From: Fimbriiglobus ruber
GTDB lineage: Bacteria; Planctomycetota; Planctomycetia; Gemmatales; Gemmataceae
Direction of reading: 5' to 3'
Assembly: GCF_002197845.1 (NCBI RefSeq)
Contig: NZ_NIDE01000010.1
Coordinates: forward strand, 124,001 to 188,000
Length of the DNA stretch: 64,000 nucleotides
In this document: piece by piece, positions 11,035 through 58,561 of the stretch
Layout of the letters: each line of letters starts with the position of its first letter
Position numbering within the stretch: the stretch's first letter is position 1
The notes under the pieces: model-generated
Databases searched by the model: none
What the model saw: only the letters and a program-made list of their open reading frames with translations
Told to the model about the DNA's origin: nothing
Position numbers and translations under genes: made by a program

Positions 11035-11223
11035 GCGATTTACGCTCTGCGGACGGGCTCGGGATGCGTTCTGCGGGAAGACGTAATAGCCTTTTCCCAA
11101 CTTTCGCGACAGACCAACTCCCGCACGACCAAACCTCGTCCGGCGAAGGTTCACTTGAGGAGGCACGGGGCAGAACTCTTGTCATCGCATGGCGTGGGGG
11201 TAAAATAATGAAATCGTTCGCCC

Positions 11224-11274
11224 AACGTGCGGGACGACTCCACGTTCATCAATTCCGGTAGGGACGACCCTGCC
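11224..11274 (+). promoter_or_regulatory. guanidine-II (mini-ykkC) riboswitch candidate
   Basis: Two tandem hairpins, each with an ACGA loop. P1 is 11224-11246: 9 bp with a bulged C11230 and loop 11234-11237. P2 is 11257-11274: 7 bp with loop 11264-11267. They are joined by 10 nt. The next Shine-Dalgarno-like AAAGGTG (11284-11290) is 10 nt after P2 and precedes the ATG of a guanidinium exporter. Twin ACGR loops ahead of the ribosome site are the defining features of mini-ykkC RNAs, which turn on translation when guanidinium binds. The downstream gene matches the class exactly. Confidence 0.85.
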
Positions 11275-11294
11275 ACTAACGCCAAAGGTGCGTT

Positions 11295-20263: not shown

Positions 20264-20338
<75 letters not shown>

Positions 20339-20372
20339 CTTTTAAGTCGATACCCCGTCAGTAGTTAGGGAA

Positions 20373-20406
20373 CCCTGACACCCCCCACACCAAGGGGGTG
20401 TCAGGG
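20373..20406. terminator. 13-bp stem hairpin between tRNA and integrase
   Basis: CCCTGACACCCCC (20373-20385) pairs exactly with 20394-20406 around an 8-nt loop. No T-run follows on the plus strand. It could be a terminator for the tRNA or an arm-type site for the integrase. Confidence 0.5.
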
Positions 20407-20469
20407 AACTCTGTCAGGAAATCACTTCCCTGGGCGTACAATGGCTGTTCCTCCACACGAGGAGACGTC

Positions 20470-21498: not shown

Positions 21499-21508
21499 AA
21501 AAGCATAA

Positions 21509-21526
21509 GGGGCGAATAAACGCCCC
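21509..21526. terminator. convergent terminator hairpin after integrase
   Basis: GGGGCG (21509-21514) and CGCCCC (21521-21526) with an AATAAA loop. It lies in the 41 bp between the stops of the integrase and the convergent HTH gene, so it can serve both. Confidence 0.55.
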
Positions 21527-21539
21527 CTGCCTTCCCGAC

Positions 21540-21854
21540 TCAAGAGAAGTGTTCGGCAAATGTCTGCTCATCGTCTCGGGAATTTTTCTTGAGATATGCG
21601 TCGGCGGCCGCCTCCAAAATTCGGATTGTTCCCCGACCGAGGCCGACTCTGATGCTTGGGAGTTGCCCCCCTGACACGAGCGCATAGATAATCGAACGGC
21701 TCACTCGCCAGCATGCGGCGAGCTGAGCGACGGTCAGGTATGTCGGCAACTGTTTTTGCCGTTCCGTGTTCTCGTCAGTGTCGCCCTTCGGGGTCATAAT
21801 TTTAGCCGAACTATCTGCCCCGATGACGCGGCTGTACTCTTGTTTCGCTGACAA
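21540..21854 (-). CDS. excisionase-like helix-turn-helix protein
   Basis: 104 residues. The C-terminal half has the HTH_17/MerR-like fold of excisionase-family DNA-binding proteins: YLTVAQLAACWRVSRSIIYALV, then a wing region with LPSIRVGLGRGTIRI. It is convergent with the integrase, and such proteins set the direction of recombination. Start is a TTG at 21854 with GGAGG seven bases upstream. Confidence 0.75.
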   Translation of the reverse strand: MSAKQEYSRVIGADSSAKIMTPKGDTDENTERQKQLPTYLTVAQLAACWRVSRSIIYALVSGGQLPSIRVGLGRGTIRILEAAADAYLKKNSRDDEQTFAEHFS

Positions 21855-21966
21855 AATAGGTCCTCCAAGTCAGACCACTCGCTCTCCCTGGCGTTCGTTG
21901 GCTCCATCCACGTCTCACCAACACTCATGAACTTCTGAAAGCCGAAGTCCGCCTCGGCTCATCGGC

Positions 21967-22260
21967 CTATCTTTCCATGTCCCAGTCACTTTCCTTGGTG
22001 CTGTCCACCAACGTGAGTTCCACCACGTTGTCTTTGGAAACGGAGCGGGCGAAGTCGATCACGTCCCCCTCCAGGCCGTGCAGCACTTCGATGACCGGCC
22101 CCACGAACTCTTTCACTACCTCGCGAAACTCCGGTGTGAGGCCGTTCGCCTCAAGGAATTTCGAGAGCCCAACGGTGAGGTGTTCCTCGATGACGACGCT
22201 GCTGCTCAGGACTCGGCCGATCAGCTTCTCCCGCTTATCGGGAGCGGGGTTGTCGTTCAC
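21967..22260 (-). CDS. small acidic protein of unknown function
   Basis: 97 residues from GTG 22260, which overlaps the stop of the upstream gene as GTGA, implying translational coupling. Mostly helical and acidic, ending ESDWDMER. No family recognised. First of a run of small leftward island genes. Confidence 0.55.
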   Translation of the reverse strand: MNDNPAPDKREKLIGRVLSSSVVIEEHLTVGLSKFLEANGLTPEFREVVKEFVGPVIEVLHGLEGDVIDFARSVSKDNVVELTLVDSTKESDWDMER

Positions 22261-22454
22261 TTCTTCTCCCCGGTTAGTGCTGACACGAGCCATTCCGGAG
22301 GCTTGTTGAGAATCGAGCGCAAGCAGGTGAAAATCACCATGCTTAATTCGCCGTGAAGATCGGTCCCCGAGAGGGATTTAAGTTCCTCGGGGATCGCGCG
22401 AATGAGCCGGTCGGAAATTGCTTTGGCCAGAACTTCCAGCCAATCGGTGTTCAT
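22257..22454 (-). CDS. small protein of unknown function
   Basis: 65 residues, helical, with a central amphipathic stretch (ISDRLIRAIPEELKSL). Its stop overlaps the next gene by 4 nt. No recognised family; the coupling and coding pattern support it being real. Confidence 0.55.
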   Translation of the reverse strand: MNTDWLEVLAKAISDRLIRAIPEELKSLSGTDLHGELSMVIFTCLRSILNKPPEWLVSALTGEKK

Positions 22455-22476
22455 CCGAGATACCTCACGAAGTAGG

Positions 22477-22677
22477 CTAATTCGCGCTTGGTTGCGGCGG
22501 AAACGACGGCGTGGGCGTTTGTTCGATGTACGCGTAGATGCAGGTCTGAAGGTGTTCGCGGATGCGATCGTACGCCTGGGGTGCCGGTAGCATCATCAAG
22601 TTCGGCAACATGTGAAGCAGAAGAGACGCCGAGGAAGCGGCTGTGTTCTCGGCACGCTTCTCGTCGAACAGGTTCAT
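22477..22677 (-). CDS. small protein of unknown function
   Basis: 66 residues starting at ATG 22677 behind a strong GGAGG. Helical, with a Leu/Met-rich middle (LLLHMLPNLMMLPAP) and a Pro-rich tail. No family recognised. Confidence 0.5.
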   Translation of the reverse strand: MNLFDEKRAENTAASSASLLLHMLPNLMMLPAPQAYDRIREHLQTCIYAYIEQTPTPSFPPQPSAN

Positions 22678-22690
22678 AGCAACCTCCGGG

Positions 22691-23206
22691 TTACGCCAGG
22701 CAGTAACCGAGACCGAGGAGCCCGTTGTCCCATGAGGTTATGAGCGATGCCATCGTTTCGAGCGTTTTGGCGAAACGCTGCGGCGTCATGTCGGAGGTTT
22801 TGCCGTTCCCGTCGATCACGATCCGCGTCGCGTCGTCCATGTCGACTGCGATCAGTGATAAACCATCTAGCCTCAAATTCGCGGCCTCCATCGCCTCGGT
22901 CACGTGTCGGGGAAGGCAAAGTCGCGGAAACTCAATGTTGCTAAACAGACCGACAGACGACCGGTGGCCTTGGAAGGCGAGAACAGCGACGTAGGGAATG
23001 CCGAGGTAACGGTACTCGAACGTGGCTTGAGCCGGGGCGAATGAAAGTAGGCGCAGGTTGGTCACCATCGAAAGTGACTTCACCAGGGATTCAAAATTGG
23101 GCGTAACGTTTGCCGATTGTAAAGCCACGGATTGGTCAACATGTTTTTTCGCGGCTATCTCAACAACCTTGTCTATCAGGCACATTAAAAAAAATTTCCA
23201 GGTCAT
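22691..23206 (-). CDS. protein of unknown function
   Basis: 171 residues from ATG 23206 (GGAGCAAAGG upstream; the frame is open to 23266). Mixed alpha/beta with a strand-rich core (RLLSFAPAQATFEYRYLGIPYVAVLAF) and an acidic segment DMDDATRIVIDG. No known domain. It lies 14 bp upstream of the 66-residue gene, so probably the same transcript. Confidence 0.6.
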   Translation of the reverse strand: MTWKFFLMCLIDKVVEIAAKKHVDQSVALQSANVTPNFESLVKSLSMVTNLRLLSFAPAQATFEYRYLGIPYVAVLAFQGHRSSVGLFSNIEFPRLCLPRHVTEAMEAANLRLDGLSLIAVDMDDATRIVIDGNGKTSDMTPQRFAKTLETMASLITSWDNGLLGLGYCLA

Positions 23207-23292
23207 CCTTTGCTCCCTACGCGAGGGGAAATGAGAGAATATCTCTTCAAAAACGGCCCGCCCCACGGATGGAGGCGGGCGGTATGGTTACA

Positions 23293-23466
23293 TCACAGCT
23301 TCTTCAAAAAGCCTCCAAGGATGTCGATCCCACCCTTCTGGACGGTCGGGCTACTGAACGCCTTTTCAAGCAGCCAGACCGCTCCGATGGCGAGCACGAA
23401 GAAACCGACGCATCCGAGTCCGAGGATCGATTCAGCCAAGGCACCGTACAACATGCGAAACTCCAT
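23293..23466 (-). CDS. single-pass membrane peptide
   Basis: 57 residues from the Met at 23466 (the frame is open to 23508). One transmembrane helix (ILGLGCVGFFVLAIGAVWLL) then a short tail ending GGFLKKL. No family recognised. It has the size and position of an island accessory membrane protein. Confidence 0.5.
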   Translation of the reverse strand: MEFRMLYGALAESILGLGCVGFFVLAIGAVWLLEKAFSSPTVQKGGIDILGGFLKKL

Positions 23467-23682
23467 GCGAAAGCACACGAAACATTTCCGGTTACACGCC
23501 GGAAGCAACTGTATGTAAACAGCATCCTTGCCGGTCGTTTCTCATCCATTAAAAACCGTTCGTGCTATCTCGGGATAGCTGAGACATTTAGGGCGCAGAC
23601 GGCATCACAAGTTAGCAATGCCGATCGCAGAATGATCATCACCAGGAGACAGGTAAGCATGGTTCGCCTCTTGCTTGCTATT

Positions 23683-23886
23683 TCAACTCTCCATATCCAG
23701 TTCCTTGTCGCCGTGCTTCTGTTCGTAGGTTTCTCGTGGAAGTTTGTTCAACGGGGCTCCTGGTTCCGGAGCGTGTTCCGGTGACCCGAAGTAGATTTCG
23801 TTGACAGTCTGTCTGATGTCTTTGATCCCTTCTCGCCCCATAGCCGCGACCTCTCCGATGAATTCTTTCCACTTGTCTGACGCCAT
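23683..23886 (-). CDS. small charged protein of unknown function
   Basis: 67 residues from ATG 23886 behind a consensus AAAGGAGG. Helical N-terminus (DKWKEFIGEVAAMGREGIKD), then charged and Pro-rich. It ends before an AT-rich gap and lies 18 bp downstream of the four-helix membrane protein gene. No homologue recognised. Confidence 0.6.
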   Translation of the reverse strand: MASDKWKEFIGEVAAMGREGIKDIRQTVNEIYFGSPEHAPEPGAPLNKLPRETYEQKHGDKELDMES

Positions 23887-23904
23887 GCGATCCTCCTTTC
23901 AGGG

Positions 23905-24468
23905 TTAGTGATTCGGCAAATTCTTCATCAACCACGCCTGCTCTTCTCGGGCGTCTTCCACTGCTTGAATGCGGGCATTTTCTTCCATCGCGGCGTACTG
24001 ATGGGCGATGACCAAGCACACGGCGGAGAATATCAACCAGGGGCCAAGGCCGTTGCCCTGGGATTTCACATAGAACCCGGCGAAAAGTACGAGCAGCGGT
24101 TCCCACAAACGTTTGGCGATGGCATCGCCGCCCAAGAATGAAAGCCCGCTTTTCCCCATGTACCGCGAGTGAGGTCTGTATTGCCAAACCCTCCGCTTGT
24201 AGGCGTGCTTGGCTTTGTGCAGCACGTACATAACCAGCGTCAGTAACCAGAAGAACATTACCTCCGGGTAGCCCGGCGCTAGGAACAGGTAATAGAGCAA
24301 CATGGCACCCATGCCAATCACGAACTGGACGCCGAGATACCCGCCACCCATCGACCCGCCGCAGCGCAGCCAGACAGCGATAAAGACTGCGATGCACTGA
24401 GCGAATCCGATTACAAAATTCACATTGCTTTTGAAATTTTGTAGCGGCTCGTGCTTTTGTTGAGTCAT
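23905..24468 (-). CDS. multi-pass membrane protein of the island
   Basis: 187 residues from ATG 24468 with AAAGGGG upstream. Four predicted membrane helices: about 15-35, 42-65, 68-85, and two shorter ones near 125-160. The C-terminus is a charged coiled segment (MEENARIQAVEDAREEQAWL). It is immediately downstream of the TraG-like ATPase, a position often taken by membrane partners of coupling proteins; that role is inference. Confidence 0.65.
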   Translation of the reverse strand: MTQQKHEPLQNFKSNVNFVIGFAQCIAVFIAVWLRCGGSMGGGYLGVQFVIGMGAMLLYYLFLAPGYPEVMFFWLLTLVMYVLHKAKHAYKRRVWQYRPHSRYMGKSGLSFLGGDAIAKRLWEPLLVLFAGFYVKSQGNGLGPWLIFSAVCLVIAHQYAAMEENARIQAVEDAREEQAWLMKNLPNH

Positions 24469-24570
24469 ATGCACCCCTTTCGATGTTGCTTCTGTGATTA
24501 CACCCAAACGATAGGTGTTGATTTTGAGTTTCTCAATATACAGTTCGGGAAACTTGCTTCGGGAAATTTC

Positions 24571-26016
24571 CTAGAAGCGCTGCCGGAACGAGGCCTTGAT
24601 CCAGGTCTTTCCGTTACTGGCGAAGCTCCGGCCGGATTGGAATACGTAAGCCTCGACGATTCCCCGGTGGCCCTTTGCAAGTCCAAGAAATAATTCTGAC
24701 GGTAGTGCAGGTCTGAAAGCTTGGCTCCAGCTTGCGGTTACGTTGCCCTGTTGTTGGCCGAGGAAGTCGCCCACGATGTCGTAGGGCTGACTAGAACCGT
24801 TCGAGCCACCGAAAGTGACCTCCTTCACTTCACCCGCGAAGCTGGACAGCAGCTTGTTTGTTTCAGGATCTGAATTTGCACAGCCTATAACTGTCGCATG
24901 ATTACTTATCCATGCCTGGACTTGGTGTCGTGCCGCTTCACTGCTGCCTAATGCAGTGACTGCAAGCGGGATATTTTGAATCACGTTGACGCAGATACAC
25001 TTGAATTGCCGGGACTGGCTCAGGAACATCGCGTCAAGTTCGGGAACACAGAAATTTGCCGCTTCATCCGTGTAAAAAATGAAGGGTCGGCATTCACCCT
25101 TGAGGCTTCGCCGCATCGCAGCGCGTTGGAATAGGAGCTTGACGGCTACCGCTGCCCATTGTGCGGGTGGTCCGAAAACAGCCCCCGGCACGTCGAAGAT
25201 GACCAGTTTCCCCTCCCTCAACGCTTCCTCGGCAGTGAACGTCGTGTCTCCGGTAATGAGATCCGCAAAGCGATTCGAGAGCAGCTTGTCGAGGGTATTT
25301 AGAGTCACCGACTGAATGATGCTACGCGTCTTTTCTGAAAGCTCGGGCCATTCGGTACTAAACCACTCCCAGGCCATTTTGAAGTTCCGGTCGTCCGCGT
25401 GATTGATCGACGCGGCCAGAACGCACTTCGCCGCGAAGGAAGATCCCCGCCACTTCGGGTCTTTGAGCTGCTCCGGGCTATTGGGGCAGGATTGGCAAAA
25501 TTCGAGTACCTCCTGAAATCCCACGACGAGACTGGCCATCTGGAGGATGGACATCGCGTAGCCCATCTGGCGTTCCGAAGACTCCGGCCAGTAGCTGTCT
25601 GAACTGGTCCGCTGTCGGTTCCTGTTTGCGGCTTCCATGATGACGCCGAGGAGGGCCTTCGCGCTCTCCACCCCACCCCCTTTCGCGTTGAGTTCGGAAT
25701 CCAGTAAATTCATCCGCCACCGACCACCGGGTGTCACGTGAATTACGTCAGACAGCCGACCCGTTTGGCGAGCGTAAGCGATGTGCCGAGCCCCCTCATC
25801 GGGTTTTTGACACAGGATTAAGGCACCAGGACGGGACGGATGGCAATAAAGCCCCAAGGCCAGGTTCGAGCAAATACCCGTTGTCTTTCCAGAGCCGATC
25901 ATCCCGCTGATGAAAATGTTCGAGCAGCATTGCGGCTGAGTGATCCAGTCTCGTGGGGTGAGCCGGAGGACTGCGTCACGTGGTCGGCTACCAGGAAGGC
26001 GAAAGAAGTCGAACAT
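24571..26016 (-). CDS. TraG/VirD4-like ATPase (putative DNA coupling protein)
   Basis: 481 residues. Walker A GMIGSGKTT (38-46), a Walker B-like FIFYTDEAANF about 270 residues later, and the all-alpha insert typical of VirD4/TraG and TraD ATPases (SDSYWPESSERQM). Coupling proteins are ring hexamers that move relaxase-bound DNA to a transfer channel. The N-terminal membrane anchor found in VirD4 is missing, so a separate membrane partner would be needed; the adjacent four-helix protein is a candidate. No relaxase was recognised nearby. Confidence 0.75.
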   Translation of the reverse strand: MFDFFRLPGSRPRDAVLRLTPRDWITQPQCCSNIFISGMIGSGKTTGICSNLALGLYCHPSRPGALILCQKPDEGARHIAYARQTGRLSDVIHVTPGGRWRMNLLDSELNAKGGGVESAKALLGVIMEAANRNRQRTSSDSYWPESSERQMGYAMSILQMASLVVGFQEVLEFCQSCPNSPEQLKDPKWRGSSFAAKCVLAASINHADDRNFKMAWEWFSTEWPELSEKTRSIIQSVTLNTLDKLLSNRFADLITGDTTFTAEEALREGKLVIFDVPGAVFGPPAQWAAVAVKLLFQRAAMRRSLKGECRPFIFYTDEAANFCVPELDAMFLSQSRQFKCICVNVIQNIPLAVTALGSSEAARHQVQAWISNHATVIGCANSDPETNKLLSSFAGEVKEVTFGGSNGSSQPYDIVGDFLGQQQGNVTASWSQAFRPALPSELFLGLAKGHRGIVEAYVFQSGRSFASNGKTWIKASFRQRF

Positions 26017-28499: not shown

Positions 28500-31400
28500 A
28501 TGTCACAAGTCCAGTATTGTTTGCAGTTTCCGTCGATTCCGCCTACAAATGAGAGCGAACTAACTCATGTCCCTGTGATGGCAAAATCCAAGTCGACTCC
28601 GTCGCTTTTTGATTCCGAATTACCTCCGGAAGAACGGTCTCGCACGTTTGCTGAACGGTTTACGCCTCCCTCTGCCAAGCCATTCACGGAAAAGGTCCGG
28701 TCTTCCAGGCCCAGCCTGTTCGATGCGGTGAATGACGAACCGGAGATCCGCGAGGAACCGCTCGCGCTGCCGCCGCCCGCACAGCCAGTGCCACCTCGTC
28801 CAGTGCCAACCGTGGCCGCCGGCCCAATGGGCAAAGCAAAGGATCTTCTCGCCGCGATCAAGACGCTGAAGAAACTCGAACGCCTTCGCTGCATTCCCGA
28901 CGACGGCGAACGCGAGGTGTTGTCCAGGTTTTGTGGGTTCGGACCCGTCGCTTTGCACATCTTCCCTGACCCCGTTACCGGTAAGTACAAGGACGGCTGG
29001 GAGCAGATCGGCGAGGAACTCCGTGGGTTACTGACGCCCGAGGAATACGCTTCGGTCAAGAGAACCACGTTCAGCCAGTTCTTCACTTCTCCGGTCGTCA
29101 TGGCGGCCATGCACGAGGGATTGGCCCGGTTAGGGGTTGCCCCCGGCGCGACGGTGCTGGAGCCTGGGGCTGGGATCGGCCGGTTCATGAACCAAGGGGA
29201 TTACGCGTACATCGGCGTGGAACTCGACTCGATTACGGGGAGAATCGCGAGGTTGCTCCATCCCAAGGCCGATATCCGAATCGAGAGCGTTCAGGACACC
29301 AGGTTACCGCAACTCGATGCCGTCATTGGTAACGTCCCATTCGCCGACGTGAAGCTGGAACACAACGGGCAGCGGTTTTCCCTTCACGATTACTGCTTTG
29401 CCAAGTCAGTGGACTCACTGAAACCGGGTGGCGTGTTGGCGCTCGTCACCTCGCACTACACGCTGGATAAGCAGAACACGGCGATTCGCGAGTACCTTGC
29501 AGACCGAGCCGACTTCCTTGGGGCGATTCGGTTGCCGAGCGACGCCTTCAAGCGGGAAGGGACTTCCGTCGTCACGGACATCGTTTTTATGCGTAAACGA
29601 AGTTTAGATGAACCCCCAAGGCACGTTGACGAGTGGCTGAAGGCCGAGCCGACCGAGATCGAGGGTCGCTCGCTGCCGGTCAACGAATATTTCAATCGGC
29701 ATCCGGAAATGGTGCTGGGGACGTATAGCGGGAAGGATTCTCTTTACGGAGAAGGCTATTCGGTCCTCTCAAACGGCGACCTGGCTGAGCAGTTGAAGCG
29801 TGCGGTAGAGCGGTTGCCGGAGCTTAAAACCCCATCTCGACCCGATTTAGAGGCGAATTCTGCGGAAATCCCGCAAAAATCGGCCTTAGATACCTCGAAA
29901 GGCCAGTTTGTCCCTCCTCCTCCTGAAAAGCACATCTCCGAAGGCTCATTTTTCGTTCACGATTCTCGAATCCATCAGATGGTTGATGGGCAGACGGTTC
30001 CCGTGGTGTACGGCGGCTCCGAGCTTTGGGCGCACGGGGGATTGGTCGGACGGAGGATGGGTGCTCTCATCGGCCTCCGCGATCTCGCCAGGCGGGTTCT
30101 CCAGTCCCAGAACGAGGGCTGGCCGGAGTCCGCAAGGGTAGATGCCAGGAGGAAGCTGAACCACGCTTACGACGCCTTTAAATCCGCTTTTGGCCCCATC
30201 AACAAAACGACCGTTTCGGAAAGCAAGGACGGTACACAGATCCGCCGCATGCCCAATCTGGCCAAGTTCCGCGAGGACCCCGACGCCATGCTCGTCATGG
30301 CCCTGGAGGAATACGACGAGGCCACGGGTGAGGCGAAGAAGGCTCCCATCATGCAGCGGGACGTGGTCGGGAAGACGCCTCCGATCACGTCAGTCACGTC
30401 AGCCGAGGAAGGGCTTCTCGTTTCCCTCGATCAACGCGGGGCGGTTGACCTTCCCTTTATCGCACAGCTTTACGGGAAGCCTGAGGGGACGGTCATCTCC
30501 GAACTTGGCGACCTGATCTACTTCGACCCTCAAAAGGCCTGGCAAACGGCGGACGAGTACCTGTCGGGGAACGTAAGAGCCAAGTTGGCCGCTGCTGAGA
30601 AAGCCGGGGTCGAGCGGAACATCGAAGCACTGAAGGCCGTTCAACCGGAGGACGTGCTACCGGGTGATATCGACGCCAACTTGGGAGCGCCGTGGATTCC
30701 CGTCTCTGACATTCAGGCCTTTGCGACCGAGTTGTTCCGCGTGGAGCCAGATTCGATCACCATCGGGCATCTGGCCAAGGATGCCGTCTGGAGCGTTGAG
30801 GGAGACTATTCTGCGGAGCGGTCGGTTGCTGTTACGGCGGATTACGGGACTTCACGAGCCAACGGCATTTGGTTGCTCGGGCTCGCGCTCAACATGAAGT
30901 CGCCTGTCATTTACGACCCCGATCCTTCGGACCCGGACAAGCGGGTGGTGAACCAGGAAGCGACACTCGCTGCGAAGGAAAAACAGCGGGCCATCAAGGA
31001 GCAATTCAAAAGCTGGGTATTCTCTGATCCCGACAGAACGGAGCGTTTGGTTCGGCTTTACAACGACAACTTCAACAACTTACGGCCGAGACAGTTCGAC
31101 GGGTCGCACCTGGATTTCCCAGGGATGTCGCAGGCTCTCACGCTCCGCCAGCATCAAAAAGACGCGGTATGGCGGATCATGTCTGGAGGAAATACCCTTT
31201 TAGCTCATGCGGTTGGGGCCGGTAAGACCGGGGCATGCTCCGCGGGCGCGATGAAGCTGAAACAAGCAGGCTTGGCGAAGAAAAGTTTGATCGCCGTCCC
31301 GAACCACTTATTGGAGCAGTTCGCCCGAGAGTTCCAGCAGTTCTACCCCAACGCGAAGCTCTTGGTTGCGAGTAAAGACGACTTCACCAAAGAGCGGAGG

Positions 31401-33746
31401 AAGTTTCTCACGGCGAAGATCGCATCAGGGGATTGGGATGCGATTATCGTGACTCATTCGAGTTTTGAGAGAATTGGAATGTCCCGGGATTTTCAGGAGA
31501 AGTTCCTGCGGAAGCAGATTGCTGAATACGAGGAGTTGCTGTGTGACCGCGCGAAGGACAAGAATCGGAACATCATCAAGACACTCGAAAAACAGAAAGC
31601 AGCAAGAGAAGCCAAGTTGAAGGATTTACTTGCCCAGGACAAAAAAGATGATGGCTTGGTGTTCGATGAGCTCGGGGTTGACCACATATTTATTGATGAA
31701 TTTCAACAGTTTAAGAACATGGAGCTTGCCTCGAAGATGGATCGTGTCGCGGGGATTCAGACAGGTGGTTCTGAACGTGCTTTCGACCTGTTCATGAAAT
31801 CGCAGTACCTCCACGAGCAGCATCCTGGACACGGCCTTACTGGTGCTTCTGGAACTCCAGTCAGTAACTCGATGGTCGAACTCTACACCCTCCAAAAATA
31901 CTTCGATCCCGAGGGATTACGTGATCGGGGTATCGAACACTTTGACGCCTGGGCCGCCACGTTTGGGGAAGTCGTCGAGACGATGGAGATTTCGCCGGAT
32001 GGGCAAACTCTGAAGCCAAGAAGTCGCTTCGCGAAGTTCGTGAATCTTCCTGAACTCCAGCAGATGTTCCGGGCGTTTTCAGACGTGCAGACTACGGACA
32101 TGCTGGATTTACCACGACCCAAACTTGAAGGCGGTAAGGCCCAGGTCGTTGCGTGTCCGATGTCCGACGAGCAAAGCGAAATTCAGCAGAAGTTGGTCGA
32201 GAGATACGAACGCATCCGGAGTTCCAAGGTCGATCCCAGGGAGGACAACGCCCTGGCCATTACAACTGATGGGAGAAAGCTTGCTCTGGATGCCAGGATG
32301 CTTTCTCCGAATGCAGAGGACTTCCCCGGCTCAAAAATCAACGCGCTGGTGGAAAACGTCTTTGCAATCTGGGAGAAAACAGCGCCGACAAAGGGTACGC
32401 AGATGATCTTCTCGGACATCGGGGTGAATCCTACGGCTTGGGAGTTTTCCGCTTACGAGGAGGTCACCAAAAAGCTCATTGCGCGGGGAATTCCACGGGA
32501 ACAGATCGTTTCCATTGGGGAAGCTGATTCCGACGCCAAGAAGCAGGCGTTGTTCGAGAAAGTCAGAAATGGAACGGTACGGGTTCTTCTCGGGAGTACC
32601 GCGAAGTTAGGAACAGGAACCAACGTCCAGAAACGCTTGGTTGCGATGCACCACTTGGATGCCCCTTGGAAGCCGGCAGAAGTGGAACAGAGGGACGGGA
32701 GAATCCTCCGCCAGGGAAATCAGAATGAAGAGGTTTCGATCTACCGTTACGTCACTGAGGGAAGCTTCGACGCGTATATGTGGCAAGCGTTAGAAACAAA
32801 AGCACGCTTCATTTCTCAAGTAATGACAGGGGAATCTGGGGTTCGTAGAGCAGAGGACATCGGGGGACAAGAATTGAGTTACGCCGAGGTGAAGGCGATT
32901 GCTTCAGGAAATCCGGCGGTGCTGACTCTTGCAGAGGCAGACGCGGAGCTTCAGAAACTCGCGGTTCTTCGGCGATCGCATGCGGATGAGCAGTTCCTTG
33001 CAAGAAGAAACCTCCGGGAGCTTCCCCAGACGATTGAGAGGCTTGAGAAACGGCTGGAGGCGTTGACCGCAGATGCTTCGACGGTTGCCGCTTCAAAAGG
33101 GATGACGCCAGGAACCGAAGCGGCTCTCGGCCAGGCGTTGACCCAGATACCGGATGAAGTGGACCGGAGGAGGGTGTTTCCCATTGGAGAATACCGAGGT
33201 CTTGCGTTTGGGCTGGAACGACATCCAGGGGGATCGGCTGATGTTTACTTGGAGGGAAGAGGATACCGTACCGCGCCGTTGTCGAGGGAATCGCAAGGCC
33301 CACGAGCAGTAATGAACGCGCTGAACCGAATCGCCACAACTTACGACGAGCGGATCGAAGCCACGGGGAAAGAGCTTGTCGTGGTGCGAGGGCAGCTTGG
33401 GGATTACGAAGCACGACTGGGGAGGGTGTTTGCTCACTCAGGGTACATGGAAGAGCTTTCAGGGTTGCGGGATCGGCTGAAAATCGCGCTGTCAGGAACG
33501 CCGGCGGAGGGAGAACCGACAGCGGGAGAGTTGGCGGAGAAGATCAAGGCACTTCGGGAATCGCAAGTTGTGGAAGCACCTATGAGAGTAACGCCGAAGC
33601 CAAGAGCGGAAATTCGGAGACGGGTGGAGGAGAAGCCGGTGGAACCAGAGGCGCCGGTTGAGGAAGCCCCGCTTGAGGAGGTTCGTCCGCCGGAATCATT
33701 CCGCAGGAGGATCAATCGAGGTGGGGCACAGCAGACGCTGTTTTAG
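28500..33746 (+). CDS. giant N6-adenine methyltransferase-SNF2/DEAD helicase fusion (DarB-like)
   Basis: 1748 residues. Methyltransferase domain: motif I VLEPGAGIGRFM (219-230) and catalytic motif IGNVPFAD (276-283, N-V-P-F in place of N-P-P-Y/F). Superfamily-2 helicase: Walker A AHAVGAGKT near 902-910, DEAx-like FIDEFQQF near 1063-1070, motif VI RDGRILRQGN near 1397. The C-terminus is Glu/Pro-rich. No nuclease domain seen. The architecture matches phage P1 DarB and the large N12-class methylase/helicases of plasmids and integrative elements, which protect incoming DNA from restriction. Start ATG 28500 has AAAGG; Met at 28578 is an alternative. Confidence 0.88.
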   Translation: MSQVQYCLQFPSIPPTNESELTHVPVMAKSKSTPSLFDSELPPEERSRTFAERFTPPSAKPFTEKVRSSRPSLFDAVNDEPEIREEPLALPPPAQPVPPRPVPTVAAGPMGKAKDLLAAIKTLKKLERLRCIPDDGEREVLSRFCGFGPVALHIFPDPVTGKYKDGWEQIGEELRGLLTPEEYASVKRTTFSQFFTSPVVMAAMHEGLARLGVAPGATVLEPGAGIGRFMNQGDYAYIGVELDSITGRIARLLHPKADIRIESVQDTRLPQLDAVIGNVPFADVKLEHNGQRFSLHDYCFAKSVDSLKPGGVLALVTSHYTLDKQNTAIREYLADRADFLGAIRLPSDAFKREGTSVVTDIVFMRKRSLDEPPRHVDEWLKAEPTEIEGRSLPVNEYFNRHPEMVLGTYSGKDSLYGEGYSVLSNGDLAEQLKRAVERLPELKTPSRPDLEANSAEIPQKSALDTSKGQFVPPPPEKHISEGSFFVHDSRIHQMVDGQTVPVVYGGSELWAHGGLVGRRMGALIGLRDLARRVLQSQNEGWPESARVDARRKLNHAYDAFKSAFGPINKTTVSESKDGTQIRRMPNLAKFREDPDAMLVMALEEYDEATGEAKKAPIMQRDVVGKTPPITSVTSAEEGLLVSLDQRGAVDLPFIAQLYGKPEGTVISELGDLIYFDPQKAWQTADEYLSGNVRAKLAAAEKAGVERNIEALKAVQPEDVLPGDIDANLGAPWIPVSDIQAFATELFRVEPDSITIGHLAKDAVWSVEGDYSAERSVAVTADYGTSRANGIWLLGLALNMKSPVIYDPDPSDPDKRVVNQEATLAAKEKQRAIKEQFKSWVFSDPDRTERLVRLYNDNFNNLRPRQFDGSHLDFPGMSQALTLRQHQKDAVWRIMSGGNTLLAHAVGAGKTGACSAGAMKLKQAGLAKKSLIAVPNHLLEQFAREFQQFYPNAKLLVASKDDFTKERRKFLTAKIASGDWDAIIVTHSSFERIGMSRDFQEKFLRKQIAEYEELLCDRAKDKNRNIIKTLEKQKAAREAKLKDLLAQDKKDDGLVFDELGVDHIFIDEFQQFKNMELASKMDRVAGIQTGGSERAFDLFMKSQYLHEQHPGHGLTGASGTPVSNSMVELYTLQKYFDPEGLRDRGIEHFDAWAATFGEVVETMEISPDGQTLKPRSRFAKFVNLPELQQMFRAFSDVQTTDMLDLPRPKLEGGKAQVVACPMSDEQSEIQQKLVERYERIRSSKVDPREDNALAITTDGRKLALDARMLSPNAEDFPGSKINALVENVFAIWEKTAPTKGTQMIFSDIGVNPTAWEFSAYEEVTKKLIARGIPREQIVSIGEADSDAKKQALFEKVRNGTVRVLLGSTAKLGTGTNVQKRLVAMHHLDAPWKPAEVEQRDGRILRQGNQNEEVSIYRYVTEGSFDAYMWQALETKARFISQVMTGESGVRRAEDIGGQELSYAEVKAIASGNPAVLTLAEADAELQKLAVLRRSHADEQFLARRNLRELPQTIERLEKRLEALTADASTVAASKGMTPGTEAALGQALTQIPDEVDRRRVFPIGEYRGLAFGLERHPGGSADVYLEGRGYRTAPLSRESQGPRAVMNALNRIATTYDERIEATGKELVVVRGQLGDYEARLGRVFAHSGYMEELSGLRDRLKIALSGTPAEGEPTAGELAEKIKALRESQVVEAPMRVTPKPRAEIRRRVEEKPVEPEAPVEEAPLEEVRPPESFRRRINRGGAQQTLF

Positions 33747-34531: not shown

Positions 34532-35101
34532 ATGGCCAAACGCGGTCGAATCGTTCCACAAGCCCCCACGGAAACAAAGGCAGAAACCTCAGCTACTTCA
34601 GCGGCAGAAACCACTTCCGAAACTACAACCCTTCCGTCCGAGACACTTCCCCCAGGAGCAACGGATTTTGATCCGGCTTCTTTCGAGCCCTCGGAGATCG
34701 TGAATCAGGTCGCGGAAGCCACGCGGATGCCGGAGAATGGCCGTCAAACCGAACAAGGTTCCCGTCAATTCACCCCGGCGCCGGACCCATTCGACATCCA
34801 GTCAGTCTTCACCGATGACAACGCGGTGCATCTGGGGAACAGCCACAGGCAGAGGGCGTATTTCGTACATTTCGATAGGAAACCTCCCCTTGGTCCGGAA
34901 GGGCAAAAGCATCCAGCGTTAGAAGCACTGCAAGAAGCAGGGTTTAAATGGAGAGAAGTGGGGGATGGGTCGTTTGCGTGGAAAAAGCCGTGGTCTGGAA
35001 ATCAGTTCAGTTACGTTGAAGAGCAGGATAATCGCAGGCTAGTGAATCAAGTGGGGGCTTTGCTCGGGCCGGTGAAGCACGAAGAGCGGGTTCCGGATTG
35101 A
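34532..35101 (+). CDS. protein of unknown function with disordered N-terminus
   Basis: 189 residues from ATG 34532 with AAAAGGAG upstream. The first 70 are Thr/Ser/Glu/Pro-rich and probably disordered. The folded part begins NAVHLGNSHRQRAYFVHFD and includes ALQEAGFKWREVGDGSFAWKKP, resembling short domains found in plasmid-borne proteins. The leader contains a 9-bp inverted repeat TTCGGTTGC (34484-34492) and GCAACCGAA (34509-34517). Confidence 0.65.
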   Translation: MAKRGRIVPQAPTETKAETSATSAAETTSETTTLPSETLPPGATDFDPASFEPSEIVNQVAEATRMPENGRQTEQGSRQFTPAPDPFDIQSVFTDDNAVHLGNSHRQRAYFVHFDRKPPLGPEGQKHPALEALQEAGFKWREVGDGSFAWKKPWSGNQFSYVEEQDNRRLVNQVGALLGPVKHEERVPD

Positions 35102-35114
35102 GATTAAGGAGGTG

Positions 35115-35203
35115 GTGGGCGTCTCGGTTTCGCCGCCGCCACCTCCAGCACTCCGCGTTCGCTGCGGTCCCTGCGGGACGTCTGCTTCCGGCGGCTGACG
35201 CTA
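35115..35203 (+). repeat. dispersed GGGCGTC repeat, copy a
   Basis: Begins TGGGCGTCTCGG after the stop of the 189-residue gene, includes CTCCGCGTTCGCTGCGGTC, ends GGCTGACGC. It separates two convergent genes. Same family and orientation as copies at 40.3, 44.5, 46.9, 55.3 and 58.4 kb. Confidence 0.65.
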
Positions 35204-35572
35204 TCCACGCTTCCGGCCATAGTACTGCCGGTGATACGCGTTCCGGCGCAATCTTCGCTCCTCCGCGGTCATGGTTGGGAGCCGTCCGCCCTGCCGCTGC
35301 ATCACTGATGCGGGGAGGCCGTTCTCGAGGACCTTGCGAGCTTTTTCCCGCACATAGTCCGGCTCGAAACCTGCCGCCCAGCACCACCACTCGAAATCGC
35401 TTTTGTCAAAGAACCAGCGGTGAGCCTCGTCAACAATGAACTGTTTCTTGCCTTCCTGTTTTGCCCCTAACTCTCGACATCTACCCGCAAGGCATTCCAG
35501 CATGACCGTGAGCTTCGCGATGGCGAGGCGCTGTTCGGGAGTTGTGTGAATCGAATGCTCACCCGAGGGCAA
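35201..35572 (-). CDS. unknown island protein, start unclear
   Basis: 123 residues from TTG 35572, but the frame is open upstream and continues with coding-like text (KRIERFLKERGATICPPAGE) to an ATA at about 35682 that overlaps the neighbouring stop as ATAG. The protein has a helical, Trp-rich core (FFDKSDFEWWCWAAGFEPDYV) and a basic C-terminus (RRLRRNAYHRQYYGRKRG) that could bind nucleic acid. No ATG or GTG exists in the extension. Confidence 0.6.
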   Translation of the reverse strand: MPSGEHSIHTTPEQRLAIAKLTVMLECLAGRCRELGAKQEGKKQFIVDEAHRWFFDKSDFEWWCWAAGFEPDYVREKARKVLENGLPASVMQRQGGRLPTMTAEERRLRRNAYHRQYYGRKRG

Positions 35573-40011: not shown

Positions 40012-40283
40012 CGCTGGCCTTCACCTCTCTCGGTACGTCACCGCTCACGGGGAAAGCCGCGGTTGATCAATGTATCGCGATGAAGAGGCAACTTCGGTCC
40101 GTCCTGCCGTTCATCGACGGAGCCTCGGCGATGATAGTAACGGATGCGGAGAGTCAGAGGTGTGAGGTGAGAGCGGTGTATGACAGGGGGGATAAATACG
40201 CAGTTGCGTGGGCCACGAGGGCCGCAGAGGTCTCGCCAGAGATATGGGAGACAATGGCGAAGAGGAGAAGGGAGAGGGAGTAA
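40008..40283 (+). CDS. small protein of unknown function
   Basis: 91 residues from GTG 40008. Contains a strand pair (SAMIVTDAESQRCEVRAVYD) and a basic tail (AKRRRERE). Last gene of the coupled operon; a dispersed repeat follows directly after the stop. Confidence 0.55.
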   Translation: MTLAFTSLGTSPLTGKAAVDQCIAMKRQLRSVLPFIDGASAMIVTDAESQRCEVRAVYDRGDKYAVAWATRAAEVSPEIWETMAKRRRERE

Positions 40284-40284
40284 G

Positions 40285-40374
40285 GTTTTGGGCGTCCCGG
40301 CTGGCGCCGTCGCGTCCTGCGCGGGTTCCGTCGCTGCGCGACCGCTTCGCGCCGCTACGACCGCTGACGCGAGG
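40285..40374 (+). repeat. dispersed GGGCGTC repeat, copy b
   Basis: TTTTGGGCGTCCCGGCT right after the stop of the operon, GC-rich palindromic middle, ends CCGCTGACGCGAGG. Its start and end carry complementary GCGTC/GACGC. Confidence 0.7.
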
Positions 40375-40428
40375 AAAACAAACAATGCCGATACCGTACT
40401 GCGTAGGGGTGCGATCTGGAAATAGGTC

Positions 40429-41493
40429 TCATTCCGGCTGCGTAACGGCCTCGAAGAACGTCCGCACCAGTTCTGGATCGAGTCCGCCCCCGGCTGCGTC
40501 GGCGACCATCACCTCCCGGCACCGTGCGTGCGGCATGGCCACGCGATACGGTCGGTCGCTCGCCAAAGCGTCATACACGTCGGCCACCGCCAGAACCCGA
40601 ACGATGAGCGGGAGCTGGCTGCCCGCAAGGCCGTCCGGGTATCCCTTCCCATCCACCCGCTCGTGGTGCCACCGGATCAGTGGGATCAGATCCCGGGCCG
40701 AGCGGAGCGGCTCAACGATGCGGGCCCCGTCCGCCGGGTGCCGCTTGATCAATTCGTACTCGTCGGGCGTCAGCCGACCGGGTTTGTCGAGCACGGCATC
40801 CGGGGTGCTGATCTTCCCGATGTCGTGGATGGCGGCCCCTCGGCGCAAGGTATCGACCTCGCATGCACCGAGCCCGAGTCGCTTCGCCAAGGCGTGGGCG
40901 TATCGGGCTACCCGGTCCGAGTGGCCCTGAGTGAAGGGGGACTTCGCCTCGATGGCCCGGGCCAGGGCAAACATCACGGACTCGGCCGAGTCGAGGGCGT
41001 CCACTAGCTCCTTCTGCCGCAGTAGGGACCGGCACCGGGCCGCGACCTCCACGTTCGGGAACGGCTTGGTCAGGAACTCATCGGCCCCGAGATCCCAGGC
41101 TCGCACGCGGGCGTCGGCGGCCCCAGTACCAGTCAGCACCAGGACCGGTAACAGGCGCGTGCCCGGGTCGGTCTTGAGCCGGCGGCACACCTCGAACCCG
41201 CCCATCCGGGGCATGTCGAGGTCCAGAACCACCAAGTCTGGGCGATGCTCGGCCACCTGGTCCAGCGCGACCTCGCCGTCGGTGGCGATCGCCACGTCGT
41301 GCCCCTCTGCCTCCAGCACCCGGCGGAGCAGGTCGGCGATCGCGGGCTCATCGTCCACGACCAGGATCAGGCGGCGCGGTCCGGCGTGCGTGGTGATGCG
41401 CGGCTCCCAGAAGTTAATGTTCGGCGCGGTCCGCGAGTTGCGGGCCGGTCCCAGCTTTAGAAGTGCCCGCTTCTGTAGCGTCCAACACCTCAC
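40429..41493 (-). CDS. response regulator with HD-GYP domain
   Basis: 354 residues. REC domain (LILVVDDE, phosphoacceptor in LVVLDLDMP, KPF near 125), then an HD-GYP phosphodiesterase: AAIHDIGKIS with HD, HHERVDGKGYPDGL with the GYP triad, DVYDALASDRPYR. It should hydrolyse c-di-GMP when phosphorylated. The kinase gene upstream overlaps the listed GTG start by 80 bp; no ATG exists closer to the REC domain, and an ATT or ATC start after 41415 is the alternative. The pair forms a two-component system. Confidence 0.9.
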   Translation of the reverse strand: MRCWTLQKRALLKLGPARNSRTAPNINFWEPRITTHAGPRRLILVVDDEPAIADLLRRVLEAEGHDVAIATDGEVALDQVAEHRPDLVVLDLDMPRMGGFEVCRRLKTDPGTRLLPVLVLTGTGAADARVRAWDLGADEFLTKPFPNVEVAARCRSLLRQKELVDALDSAESVMFALARAIEAKSPFTQGHSDRVARYAHALAKRLGLGACEVDTLRRGAAIHDIGKISTPDAVLDKPGRLTPDEYELIKRHPADGARIVEPLRSARDLIPLIRWHHERVDGKGYPDGLAGSQLPLIVRVLAVADVYDALASDRPYRVAMPHARCREVMVADAAGGGLDPELVRTFFEAVTQPE

Positions 41494-44254
41494 GTACCTT
41501 GAACGTGAGAGCGACGGGGGAGAATGGCTTCTGGAGGAAGTTTACCCCCTCTCGAAGAATCCCGTGGCGGATGACCGCGTCGTCGGTGTACCCTGACACG
41601 AAGAGCACCCGCACTTCGGGGTGTCGCTGAGTCACGCGCTCCGCTACGAGCAGCCCACCCGGACCGGGCATCACTACGTCGGTGATCAGCAGGTGGATGG
41701 GGGCAGCGCGGCCCGTCGCCAGTCTCACCGCATCGTCCCCTTCCGCCGCTTCGAGGACGGTGTACCCGCACTCGCTCAGCACATGACGGGTCAGGCCGCG
41801 AACCCCGTGGTCGTCTTCGACCAGGAGGATCGTTTCCGCACCTCGCGGCGAGACTCGGAGCCCACGAGCGATCATTGACCCGCTGGGCAGTCGCTCCGCC
41901 CGGGGCAGGTAGACCTTGAACGTGGTCCCGACCCCGACTTCGGAATATACGCCCACATGCCCGCCACTCTGCTTCACGATCCCGTACACGGTGGCCAGAC
42001 CGAGCCCAGTCCCCTTTCCGACCTCCTTGGTCGTGAAGAATGGCTCGAAGATGCGAGCAATAACATCGGGTGGGATCCCGTTGCCTGTATCCGTCACGCT
42101 TAAGAGTGCGAAAGGGCCAGAGCGAGCCTCCGGATGCGCCTGCACGTAGGACTCGTCCAGTTCCACGTTCCGGGTCTCGATCGTGAGCCGCCCACCTGTC
42201 GGCATTGCGTCCTGGGCGTTGACCGCCAGGTTCATCAGTACCTGCTCGACCTGACCGGGGTCGGCGCGGACCGCCCACAGGTTGGGGGTCAGGGTCGTAG
42301 TAAGCCGGACATCTTCCCCGAGCAGGCGGCGGAGCATCTGCTCGGTGTCGGTCACAATCTCGTTGAGGACAAGGACACGCGGGGCCAGCACCTGCTGCCG
42401 ACTGAACGCGAGGAGTTGGCGGGTCAGCCCGGCCGACCGCTCGCCGGCCTTGAAAATCTGGGTGACCATATGCCGTGACGGGTCGTCCAGCGGAAGAGAC
42501 TGGAGGAGAATCTCGCTGTACCCATTGATGATAGTGAGCAGATTGTTGAAATCGTGCGCGACGCCGCCGGCAAGTTGGCCGATGGCCTCCATCTTCTGGA
42601 CATGTCGAAACTTCTCCTCTAGTTTCTTCCGCTCGGTCACGTTCACCTGCACGCCCACGAAGTGCGTCAGAATCCCCGTCTCATCACGGACCGGAGAGAC
42701 CGATAGTTCGTTCCAGAACGGTGTCCCGTTTTTCTGGTAGTTCAGCACTTCGACCGTACACGGCTCCCCAGCACGGACCGCTTCGCGCACCCGGGCCACC
42801 GCCTCAAGGTCTGTATCCTTGCCCTGGAGGAATCGGCAGTTGCGCCCGAGGACCTCGCCGACTTTGTACCCGGTCATCTGCACGAAACCGGGACTTGCGT
42901 ATACGATCGGGTTGTCGGGCTGCTTCGGGTCGGTGATCAGGATGCCCTGGGTCACTGCCCCGATCACTCGGTTCCGCATCCAAAGGACGTCTTCCGTGCG
43001 TTTCCGCTCAGTGATGTCGCGGATGTTACACTGGATCACCCGATCCCGGCCCACGTCGTACACATTACTGACGAATTCCACTTGGATGGGGCGCCCGTCC
43101 TTAGTCGCGAGCGGGAGGTCGTCGTACCGAATGTAGCCCTTCTCCTGGAGCGTCCGGAACGCCGCCTTGTTCGATTCGACGTCCCGGAATAGGCCGATCT
43201 CCCATAACTCCTTACCTAGCAGCTCATCGTGACGGTAGCCGAGTAGGTTCGCGAGGAACGGATTCACGTCGAACACCTGACGCGACACCGCGTCGACGAT
43301 CAAAATCCCGTCCTGGGCCGCCTCGAACAGCCGCCGATATCTGGATTCGGTGGACGTCAGGGACTCTTCCATTCCCCTCCGGTCGTCGATGTCGGTGGAG
43401 ATCCCGACCCACTCCGTCCCCTCGGTGCTTTCCAGTGCCGTCCCCTGAGAGAGGAACCACCGGTAGACCCCGTCGGCCCGGCGCAATCGATACTCGATGG
43501 CGTATGGATCGCGGCTCGACTTGCACCGGTCCCAGGCGGCGATCGCTCCCGCCACATCGTCGGGATGGAGGGCGTCGTGCCAGTTGTCGGCCGCAACGTC
43601 TTTTGGGGTCTGACCGGTGTACTCGTACCACCGGCGGTTGTACAGCAGTGGCTTCCCGGTGGCGTCGTACATAAACACCAGAGCGGGGATCGACTCGATC
43701 AGTGTCCGGTATCGCTCCTCGTTCCGTTGCAGCGTCCGCTCCGCCCGCTTCCGCTGGCAGATGTCGCGGCCTATGTCCGAGATCCCCACCAGCCGACCGT
43801 CCGTGTCCAGGATCGGGGAGAAAGTCACCGCGACGTCGATGCGCTCGCCGTCCCGATGGATCCGGACCGTCTCGAAGTGTTCCGCGTGCTTTCCGGCGGA
43901 CAGCCGGGTGGTGATCCCATCCAACTCGTTGGCCTTCTCCGGTGGCACCAAGAAGGACTCGTGCCGGCCGATCGCTTCGGACGCGGTCCATCCATAGAGC
44001 CGCCCGGCCGCCGGGTTCCAACTCGTGAGCACACCGTCGAGGGTTTCGGAGAAGATGGCGTCGTCGGCCCATTCCACGACGGCGGCCATATTAGCCGACA
44101 TGCCCCGCGCATCCTCGGATAGGTTGAGCCTTTGGGACGGAATCTCGGGAGTTGAGGCGTCCTGCGGTTTCATGTCCAGTCCTCGGTGCGGATCGGCGTC
44201 CCGATCCCGCCCACGGCGAAACACTTCAGGAGAAGACGAGCCGCTTGTTGACAT
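41414..44254 (-). CDS. LOV/PAS hybrid histidine kinase
   Basis: About 946 residues from the Met at 44254 (a TTG at 44359 and a Met at 44173 are alternatives). Four PAS domains; the fourth is a LOV domain with GRNCRFLQG (flavin-adduct Cys about 473), [18 protein letters not shown] and FVGVQVNVT, covering the FMN-contacting Asn, Asn and Gln. Then HisKA ([11 protein letters not shown], His about 567), HATPase ([26 protein letters not shown]) and a C-terminal REC (LITDVVMP, Asp about 859). A soluble blue-light sensor kinase; the HD-GYP regulator downstream is its probable output. Confidence 0.92.
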
Positions 44255-44529: not shown

Positions 44530-44590
44530 CCCTTTGGCGTCGGGTGCGCTTTTTCCGGTCCTACTGCCCCTACGACCGCTGACACAAGGA
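44530..44590 (+). repeat. dispersed GGGCGTC repeat, diverged copy c
   Basis: CTTTGGCGTCGGGTG at the start and CTACGACCGCTGACACAAGG at the end match copy b (CTACGACCGCTGACGCGAGG), with a shorter middle. Confidence 0.5.
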
Positions 44591-44692
44591 AGAATTAGTG
44601 ACGTTGTTGCGGAGGATTGAGGAAAGCACGCTCCGGGAAAAATCGTTCCCGTATAAAAGTAGGGCTGACCCAATAACCAGAGATTAAACGCG

Positions 44693-46662: not shown

Positions 46663-46883
46663 CCCCGCTCGACAGTGAAATCGTCTTCTACGCCTTCCGG
46701 TATTGTCTCGGGCGTCAGACGTATGCCGTTAGTACGTGTGCGGATTACCTCGTGGCTCGGTGGGGGGAGCTTCAGGAAAGGGATCGGGAGTTGATCGTGA
46801 AGGAGATCAGGAAAGCGTTAGCTGAAGGAAGGGCTGGGGCGGCTTGTGATGTGGAGAGCTGGGAGAAGGTGCTGAGGCGGTAG
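46659..46883 (+). CDS. small phage/plasmid-type protein
   Basis: 74 residues. FYAFRYCLGRQTYAVSTCADY resembles a short conserved protein common in phages and plasmids; a helical remainder ends WEKVLRR. Function unknown. A dispersed repeat begins 1 bp after its stop. Confidence 0.65.
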   Translation: MTPLDSEIVFYAFRYCLGRQTYAVSTCADYLVARWGELQERDRELIVKEIRKALAEGRAGAACDVESWEKVLRR

Positions 46884-46985
46884 GTTTGGGCGTCCCGGCT
46901 AAAGCCGTCGGTGCTTGCAGGACTCCGCGTTCGCTGCGGTCGCTACGCGACAGCTTCGCTTCCTTCCACCACCTAACGCGAGAAG
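46884..46985 (+). repeat. dispersed GGGCGTC repeat, copy d
   Basis: Starts GTTTGGGCGTCCCGGCT, contains CTCCGCGTTCGCTGCGGTCG, ends ACCTAACGCGAGAAGG. The clearest match to copy b at its left end and to copy a in the middle. Confidence 0.7.
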
Positions 46986-47016
46986 GAAGCCGTGGGTCGT
47001 TATTATTGAGCCAGGT

Positions 47017-51651: not shown

Positions 51652-52014
51652 CAGATTTCTCCCAGCTTGTCTATTTGGCTACTGATCCGTAGGTAGACAA
51701 CCCTGTATGCAATTTTGCTTTCGAGTCCGATTTTCAAGCAGTTTCGTCAATGGACGCATAGCCGTAGGAGCCTGCGGGTCAGTAGGGTCTTGACACCTAT
51801 CCGGTTCGGCACTCGAACTCATGGTGCTAGTCTTTAGTGATACCTAAGCCGCTTGTGGCCAGAACCGTCCCCAACCCTTTGGTCAATTCCCTGACGGCCG
51901 GCCCTTCACCTAAGCGCCGAGCCAGGTCATTCCGCTCCCACCGCATGTGCCGGTTGGCCAGGACGAAGAATCAGCGCTAGCCAGAACGTACTTCGCGCAG
52001 GGCCTCGAATAACG
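51652..52014. other. upstream region of the kinase with a gene remnant
   Basis: A 39-codon minus-strand frame (51827-51946, MRWERNDLARRLGEGPAVRE start) is preceded by coding-like but stop-broken text, so this is probably the end of a decayed gene, perhaps a regulator that once preceded the kinase. Nothing else is seen. Confidence 0.4.
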
Positions 52015-52124
52015 GTAGTGTCCCGCAGCGCGGCACGCTATTGCAAATGACCCACAGAAATCTTGGCTGATTCAGACTTTGCGGTCGCTCAAGCGAAAGT
52101 TATTACGCGCAGCGAGTCACTAGA
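52015..52124 (+). mobile_element. MITE copy 2 (110 bp)
   Basis: GGTAGTGTCCCGCAGCGCGG at the left, GCGCAGCGAGTCACTA at the right with the outer CC lost. Same orientation as copy 3, opposite to copy 1. Confidence 0.8.
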
Positions 52125-52437
52125 CGATCATCCAGCACCAGTTCATGGTGGTGGACGGGGTAACGGTGGAAACGGAGTCGTTCAACTTCACGACCGCGGC
52201 CGAGGAGCATAACGCAGAGAATGCGCTGTTCCTACGGGACGCTGCCCAGGTCGCGGGAGCGTACGAAATGAACTGGGAGCGCCTATGGAGCGAAAGCCGG
52301 TAGTGGCCCGCAGCGCGGCACGGGATGGCAAACGGCCCGCAGAAGCACCTACAGGTTCGGACTTTGCGATCGTCCTGACGAAAGCCATCACGCGCAGCGA
52401 GTCACTACCCGAAAGCCAGCCGTGGCATAAGCCATGA
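52125..52437 (+). pseudogene. phospholipase-D-like nuclease, C-terminal fragment
   Basis: Frame reads QHQFMVVDG, VTVETESFNFTTAAEEHNAE, then EMNWERLWSESR before a MITE-supplied TAG at 52301. This is the HKD-to-C-terminus part of Nuc-like nucleases (H-x-K-x4-D, ETGSFNF, NAEN). The Lys of HKD is absent, as if one codon were lost. Removing MITE copy 3 extends the end to QPWHKP with stop at 52437, overlapping the next ATG. Confidence 0.8.
52299..52409 (+). mobile_element. MITE copy 3 with 8-bp target duplication
   Basis: 111 bp with 19-bp terminal repeats matching at 16 positions (GGTAGTGGCCCGCAGCGCG against the complement of the right end). CGAAAGCC occurs directly on both sides (52291-52298 and 52410-52417). 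It hits the last codons of the nuclease gene. Confidence 0.9.
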
Positions 52438-58330: not shown

Positions 58331-58356
58331 GAGGGGATTTTATCAGAGATTTGAAG

Positions 58357-58448
58357 GGTTTGGGCGTCTCCCTTCGGGCCGGTCCCTCCGCGGCTCGCTC
58401 GACGCTCGGCCGCTTCGCGGCTGAACCGCTCTGGCACCTGACGCAGAG
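58357..58448 (+). repeat. dispersed GGGCGTC repeat, copy f
   Basis: GTTTGGGCGTCTCCCTTCGG at the start, CACCTGACGCAGAGGG at the end, palindromic GC-rich middle. It lies just upstream of the start of a minus-strand gene, in the same orientation as the other copies. Confidence 0.6.
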
Positions 58449-58561
58449 GGTTCGAACGCTTCCAATTGCCCAGCAGATCAGGTTCGGATAACCTATCTTC
58501 ACGACCAATTCCGGTCGTTCCAGACATCCGGCATCGCGTTTGCCGCTAAGACGCACCAGTC

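Follow-up and report, generated by a model that had tools for sequence, protein, structure and literature searches.

We propose that two adjacent genes in the window (the whole 64,000-nucleotide stretch of the Fimbriiglobus ruber genome that was analysed; Table 1) encode a blue-light two-component pair, in which a light-gated histidine kinase would act on an HD-GYP enzyme in the manner of RpfC/RpfG, with LOV as the sensor. We put the probability of this reading at roughly 0.6. Firm at the level of sequence are the domain make-up, the conserved motifs, the fixed linker length and the conserved gene partnership. The parts, a canonical LOV hybrid kinase and its conserved HD-GYP partner, are known and their combination is new; through it light may tune a second messenger in a planctomycete.

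Table 1. Positions of the features discussed, numbered from the first letter of the window
Feature	Position	Strand	Basis or remark
Hybrid LOV histidine kinase	41414..44254	-	Pfam matches and start codons; PAS-PAS-PAS-LOV-HisKA-HATPase-REC
LOV domain	42632..42973	-	114 aa; GRNCRFLQG and intact Asn/Asn/Gln set
HisKA, phospho-acceptor motif HDFNN	42395..42580	-	Pfam; limits converted from residues 594-655
HATPase_c domain	41897..42262	-	Pfam; converted from residues 700-821
Kinase C-terminal receiver	41498..41830	-	Pfam; converted from residues 844-954
REC-HD-GYP protein	40429..41397 (or 41493)	-	Pfam REC and HD_5, start codons, relatives
Structured repeat of ~105 nt	40273..40377	+	its end is 51 nt beyond the stop codon of the HD-GYP gene
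Next full repeat copy	46873..46986	+	
Further repeat copies	35099-35208, 58345-58451	+	
26-nt, 88% match to the repeat 3' end	44566..44591	+	upstream of the kinase; weak
tRNA-Pro	20264-20339		GC drop follows it
Tyrosine integrase	20398-21495		after tRNA-Pro
Protein with TraG/TraD C-terminal domain	24574-26016		

The kinase comprises 946 amino acids from ATG 44254 to the stop at 41414, and its frame opens further up at TTG 44359; the open reading frame and start codons bear out the limits that the initial annotation gave the gene. Besides four PAS stretches, Pfam recognises HisKA, HATPase_c and, at the C-terminus, a Response_reg domain. The receiver, which that annotation had missed, shows the protein to be a hybrid kinase; the call of the fourth PAS domain as LOV was correct, with the GRNCRFLQG motif present and the Asn/Asn/Gln flavin-contact positions intact by alignment. 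An adduct Cys of the NCRFLQG type and the three flavin-contact residues are what a LOV photoreceptor is expected to show in its sequence. Among solved structures, the LOV sequence comes closest to a histidine-kinase domain (9vf7, E = 3.5e-40) and to the LOV domains of aureochrome and phototropin. Pfam detects no HPt domain in the kinase. The genome has five HPt matches, all within open frames of at least 1005 aa, and among them no stand-alone HPt protein was found.

The top NCBIfam match of the kinase is PRK13557, a model of LOV-HK-RR hybrid kinases that covers LOV kinases of Pseudomonas. It matches residues 437-928 over model positions 42-537 of 540, in the order LOV-HisKA-HATPase-REC with which Pfam agrees, at 546.7 bits, below its cut-off of 631 bits. 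The window kinase differs in its three extra N-terminal PAS domains and in having an HD-GYP partner gene. Two CckA models also match the kinase core (451.8 and 385.6 bits), but the scores are far below the cut-offs of 1000, and the input here is LOV.

LOV hybrid kinases are common in the planctomycete family of the window, judging by sequence matches. LOV relatives 36-76% identical occur at E ≤ 1e-20 in 42 of 95 family genomes, its own counted, with 88 matches in sum. At E ≤ 1e-38, matches are found in 27 of the 95 family genomes versus 7 of 391 in an even sample of the phylum, two of the seven being family members. From regions around the strongest matches we assembled 62 distinct LOV sequences including the window, leaving out some 26 weaker ones. 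The adduct Cys is kept in 57 of them. It is replaced by Ala in L063, Pro in L040 (both from genome G094), Leu in L047, Trp in L039 and Ala in L085; in L063, L040 and L047 the other checked contact residues are intact. The LOV Gln lies exactly 31 residues from the His of HDFNN in 57 of the 62 sequences, the exceptions being three with another PAS domain in between and two without the motif. Fixed spacing and a retained Cys match what a working LOV-to-kinase junction should display.

The sequences of relatives give the LOV-kinase/HD-GYP partnership independent and good support. Searching the 95 genomes gave at least 34 HD-GYP matches at E ≤ 1e-45 (up to 23 candidates scored per genome); among the matches listed, 16 (counting that of the window) are 50% identical or more, and all others reach at most 49%. 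The neighbourhoods of these 16 genes, some of which end at contig ends, were scanned with the domains of the window's own proteins. A clade of five HD-GYP sequences (support 100/98) unites the window, genomes G054 and G071, and two genes of G051. Four of these five genes adjoin a LOV-kinase gene, one of them interrupted, as against none of the 11 other members of the group; the remaining clade gene, the second G051 copy, has no kinase within the 12.5 kb scanned. The kinase precedes the HD-GYP gene in the window, in G054 and in G051, where it is the interrupted one. In G071 the order is reversed, with 15 nt between the stop codon of the HD-GYP gene and the opening of the kinase frame. The interrupted G051 kinase survives as pieces (PAS, an apparent LOV start, and an HATPase end with receiver) that flank a transposase-domain piece of the IS4/5 family, located at 11020-11469 of locus L103; what marks it as a LOV kinase is a short N-terminal piece scoring 9.5 bits. 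About 0.7 kb downstream of the adjoining HD-GYP gene, G051 also encodes an intact LOV protein, of a different kind.

The kinases were compared by a tree of their cores, as the LOV-domain tree has too few columns and is unresolved. Six sequences shorter than 250 residues were left out (L053_2, L076, L064, L084, L048_2 and the interrupted G051 kinase), and L066, which was kept, has a very long branch and an unsure placement. The window, G054 and G071 kinases fall into one group of nine with moderate support (86/91), its inner forks largely unresolved. A fourth member, the G011 kinase, is followed immediately on its own strand by what remains of an HD-GYP gene (L057, 4203-4295; 31 residues, 55% identity, E = 4e-5). 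For the other five of the nine, the fetched stretches, one of them a 6.5-kb contig, show neither a whole HD-GYP gene nor a remnant beside the kinase. Adjacency that persists through a change of gene order, with decaying traces elsewhere, argues for a working partnership.

LOV is not essential to this HD-GYP group. The G063 HD-GYP gene adjoins a hybrid kinase without LOV, and the G087 gene has a kinase-like frame 1.7 kb away on the opposite strand. A wider scan for the clade gave 20 loci from 110 pattern matches. Seven reach at least 49% identity, all of them in Planctomycetota and six already in the sample; the new one, L111 from an Isosphaeraceae MAG, shows matches to HATPase and a receiver ahead of the HD-GYP gene and none to LOV. 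In view of the G063 and L111 pairs, LOV may have entered an older kinase/HD-GYP pair. In each of G088 and G071, the same-strand gene after a further LOV kinase encodes a protein that joins a Ser/Thr protein kinase, REC and HD_5 in one chain (L034 648-2966 and L084 6455-8812).

The strongest competing explanation is that the LOV kinase is real and light-sensitive but works mainly through its own receiver or other regulators, the HD-GYP neighbour having a separate input. The hybrid architecture of the kinase and the unusual start codon of the HD-GYP gene (see below) favour it, as do the 56 of 62 LOV loci that have no intact same-strand HD_5 neighbour in the fetched stretches, some of which end at contig ends. 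Against the pair itself count three other strong LOV proteins in the same genome that lack an adjacent HD-GYP gene. Two-component genes cluster in general, which counts against reading adjacency as partnership. Against separate outputs stand the adjacency of four members of a single HD-GYP clade to LOV-kinase genes, in two orders, and the remnant in a further genome, and we regard the explanation as unlikely.

Pfam confirms that the next gene on the same strand encodes a REC-HD-GYP protein, with REC and HD_5 found, the latter above its cut-off. The HD, HH and GYP motifs are all present, and their residues are invariant across the five-member clade. The start of the gene is less regular. Fourteen codons before the first receiver Asp, G054, G051 and G071 have ATG, ATG and TTG, and the window has ATC (41397), with GGGAG just upstream; the only standard in-frame start further upstream is GTG 41493, which overlaps the kinase gene. 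A sequencing error at the start codon is possible. As it stands, the ATC codon puts expression of the gene in question.

The HD-GYP enzyme probably breaks down a bacterial second messenger, to judge from its motifs. The initial annotation had putatively coupled the kinase to c-di-GMP hydrolysis; the relatives bear out the pairing, and c-di-GMP is plausible as the substrate, a claim weakened by the kinase's own receiver and by the closest solved HD-GYP protein. By sequence this is V-cGAP3 (5z7c, E = 4.4e-44), which is specific for 3'3'-cGAMP, ahead of 4mcw (E = 1.1e-32), which we take to be PmGH. The position aligned with the Glu that we take as the third-metal residue of PmGH is Phe in the window protein. 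A light-gated pair that hydrolyses 3'3'-cGAMP (or pGpG) in place of c-di-GMP would fit both observations. Similarity to V-cGAP3 does not fix the substrate, however, and the three GGDEF matches in the genome, alongside 11 HD_5, one PilZ and no EAL matches, make c-di-GMP synthesis likely; we consider the alternative substrates improbable.

In the light-gated pair that we prefer, blue light would cause FMN in the LOV domain to form an adduct with the Cys of NCRFLQG. The resulting change would pass through the short linker of fixed length to the histidine of HDFNN and alter kinase or phosphatase activity, perhaps modulated by the three upstream PAS domains. Phosphate would move to the kinase's own receiver and then to the receiver of the neighbouring HD-GYP protein, directly or via an HPt protein in trans. 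The kinase's own receiver means that transfer to the partner may be indirect; with no HPt domain in the kinase, and HPt confined in this genome to very long frames, the route may be direct. Phosphorylation of the partner receiver would switch cyclic-dinucleotide hydrolysis, most likely of c-di-GMP and possibly of 3'3'-cGAMP. That LOV serves in life as a redox or flavin sensor rather than a light sensor is very improbable: LovK reportedly integrates light and redox, and three of the five Cys-less relatives keep the other checked contacts, but the usual photocycle needs the Cys that nearly all relatives retain. We counted against the pair the ATC start, the interruption in G051, the pairs lacking LOV, the kinase's own receiver and the LOV kinases without an HD-GYP neighbour.

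The arrangement resembles RpfC/RpfG, where a hybrid kinase with a C-terminal HPt domain lies beside a REC-HD-GYP protein. The window likewise has a hybrid kinase adjoining a REC-HD-GYP gene, but its sensor is PAS/LOV and the terminal HPt is absent. In SL2 of Synechococcus elongatus, a LOV-GGDEF-EAL protein, blue light acts on c-di-GMP breakdown (PMC8846402). LOV-mediated action of blue light on c-di-GMP breakdown is also what we propose here; SL2 is one protein with EAL, whereas the window would use two proteins, a phosphotransfer step and HD-GYP. The literature searched, which includes the consulted parts of PMC8846402, PMC4844311, PMC8352920 and PMC6798134 and mostly leaves subscription journals outside, holds no description of a LOV kinase with an HD-GYP partner.

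The region looks accessory, given a drop in GC, integrase and TraG/TraD-type genes, and no match to the pair in two genomes of the same genus. GC falls from ~0.64 to 0.52-0.59 between 20 and 39 kb, past tRNA-Pro; the kinase/HD-GYP pair itself lies at 0.62-0.66. These two genomes, of which 86 and 87% is covered, gave no LOV match and no HD-GYP match at the search thresholds applied. The tRNA-Pro, tyrosine integrase, TraG/TraD-type protein and GC drop, from 20264 to 26016 and on, have the appearance of an integrative element or island. A right end was sought as a copy of the tRNA-Pro 3' end, and none was found in the window or in loci L137-L141. A 1748-aa helicase (28500-33746, plus strand) matches DrmD, BrxH and comparable anti-phage helicases partially and weakly; the matches from NCBIfam are far below cut-off. 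Two families of direct repeats (54 and 57 nt), both with 285-nt spacing, occupy 52006-52412.

The pair had also been described as repeat-bounded. This holds on the HD-GYP side, where a full copy of a structured repeat of ~105 nt follows the gene; on the kinase side there is a 26-nt match that finds no support in the covariance model of the repeat (7.5 bits, E = 1.6), and the next full copy lies some distance beyond. The genome has at least 40 copies (40 scored, all matched), uniform in orientation on each contig and found also on contigs C1, C5, C14, C17 and C19. Matches occur in 11 of the 95 genomes. Compensatory changes on both sides are seen in 11 of the 16 predicted pairs. We considered and rejected two identities for the repeat. 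In a comparison with Rfam, nothing but the tRNA reached the gathering level in the window, L126, L127 and L131. Classical integron attC sites have the core sites RYYYAAC/GTTRRRY, and the consensus ends here are GGGCGTC/GACGC; nor are the copies close to an integron integrase (best R1 match near the integrase places on contigs C14 and C18, E = 0.82). A crude attC scan of five sources, run with no positive control, found none and is given no weight here.

In the self-similarity of the sequence, the 3' end of the repeat acts as a homology boundary. Ends of self-similar stretches, which are not independent of one another, fall within 8 nt of an element 3' end in 25 of 568 cases, compared with 1.27 on average and 4 at most in 200 random trials, and five lie near element 5' ends. 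Several copies have common left flanks and different right flanks; some share both. It is doubtful that the operon of LOV kinase and HD-GYP protein is carried by an undescribed mobile system of the cassette kind, with the 3' end of the ~105-nt element as recombination boundary. Three of 33 ORFs of at least 100 aa end within 30 nt of an element, no excess over the random 8.7%, which counts against cassettes. Copies of the repeat were not found beside the G054, G051 and G071 pairs, so the pair does not depend on it. If cassettes were nevertheless involved, light control of a second messenger would be an accessory trait that passes from one planctomycete to another in one piece.

The structured repeat is the more unusual by-product of this analysis. 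If the light-gated pair is right, planctomycetes would link blue light to the breakdown of a cyclic dinucleotide by means of two proteins. The family offers natural comparisons for this route: intact pairs, a pair in reverse order, a kinase broken up by a transposase piece, the remnant of an HD-GYP gene and Cys-less LOV domains, together with a short LOV-HisKA junction of one length across 57 proteins.
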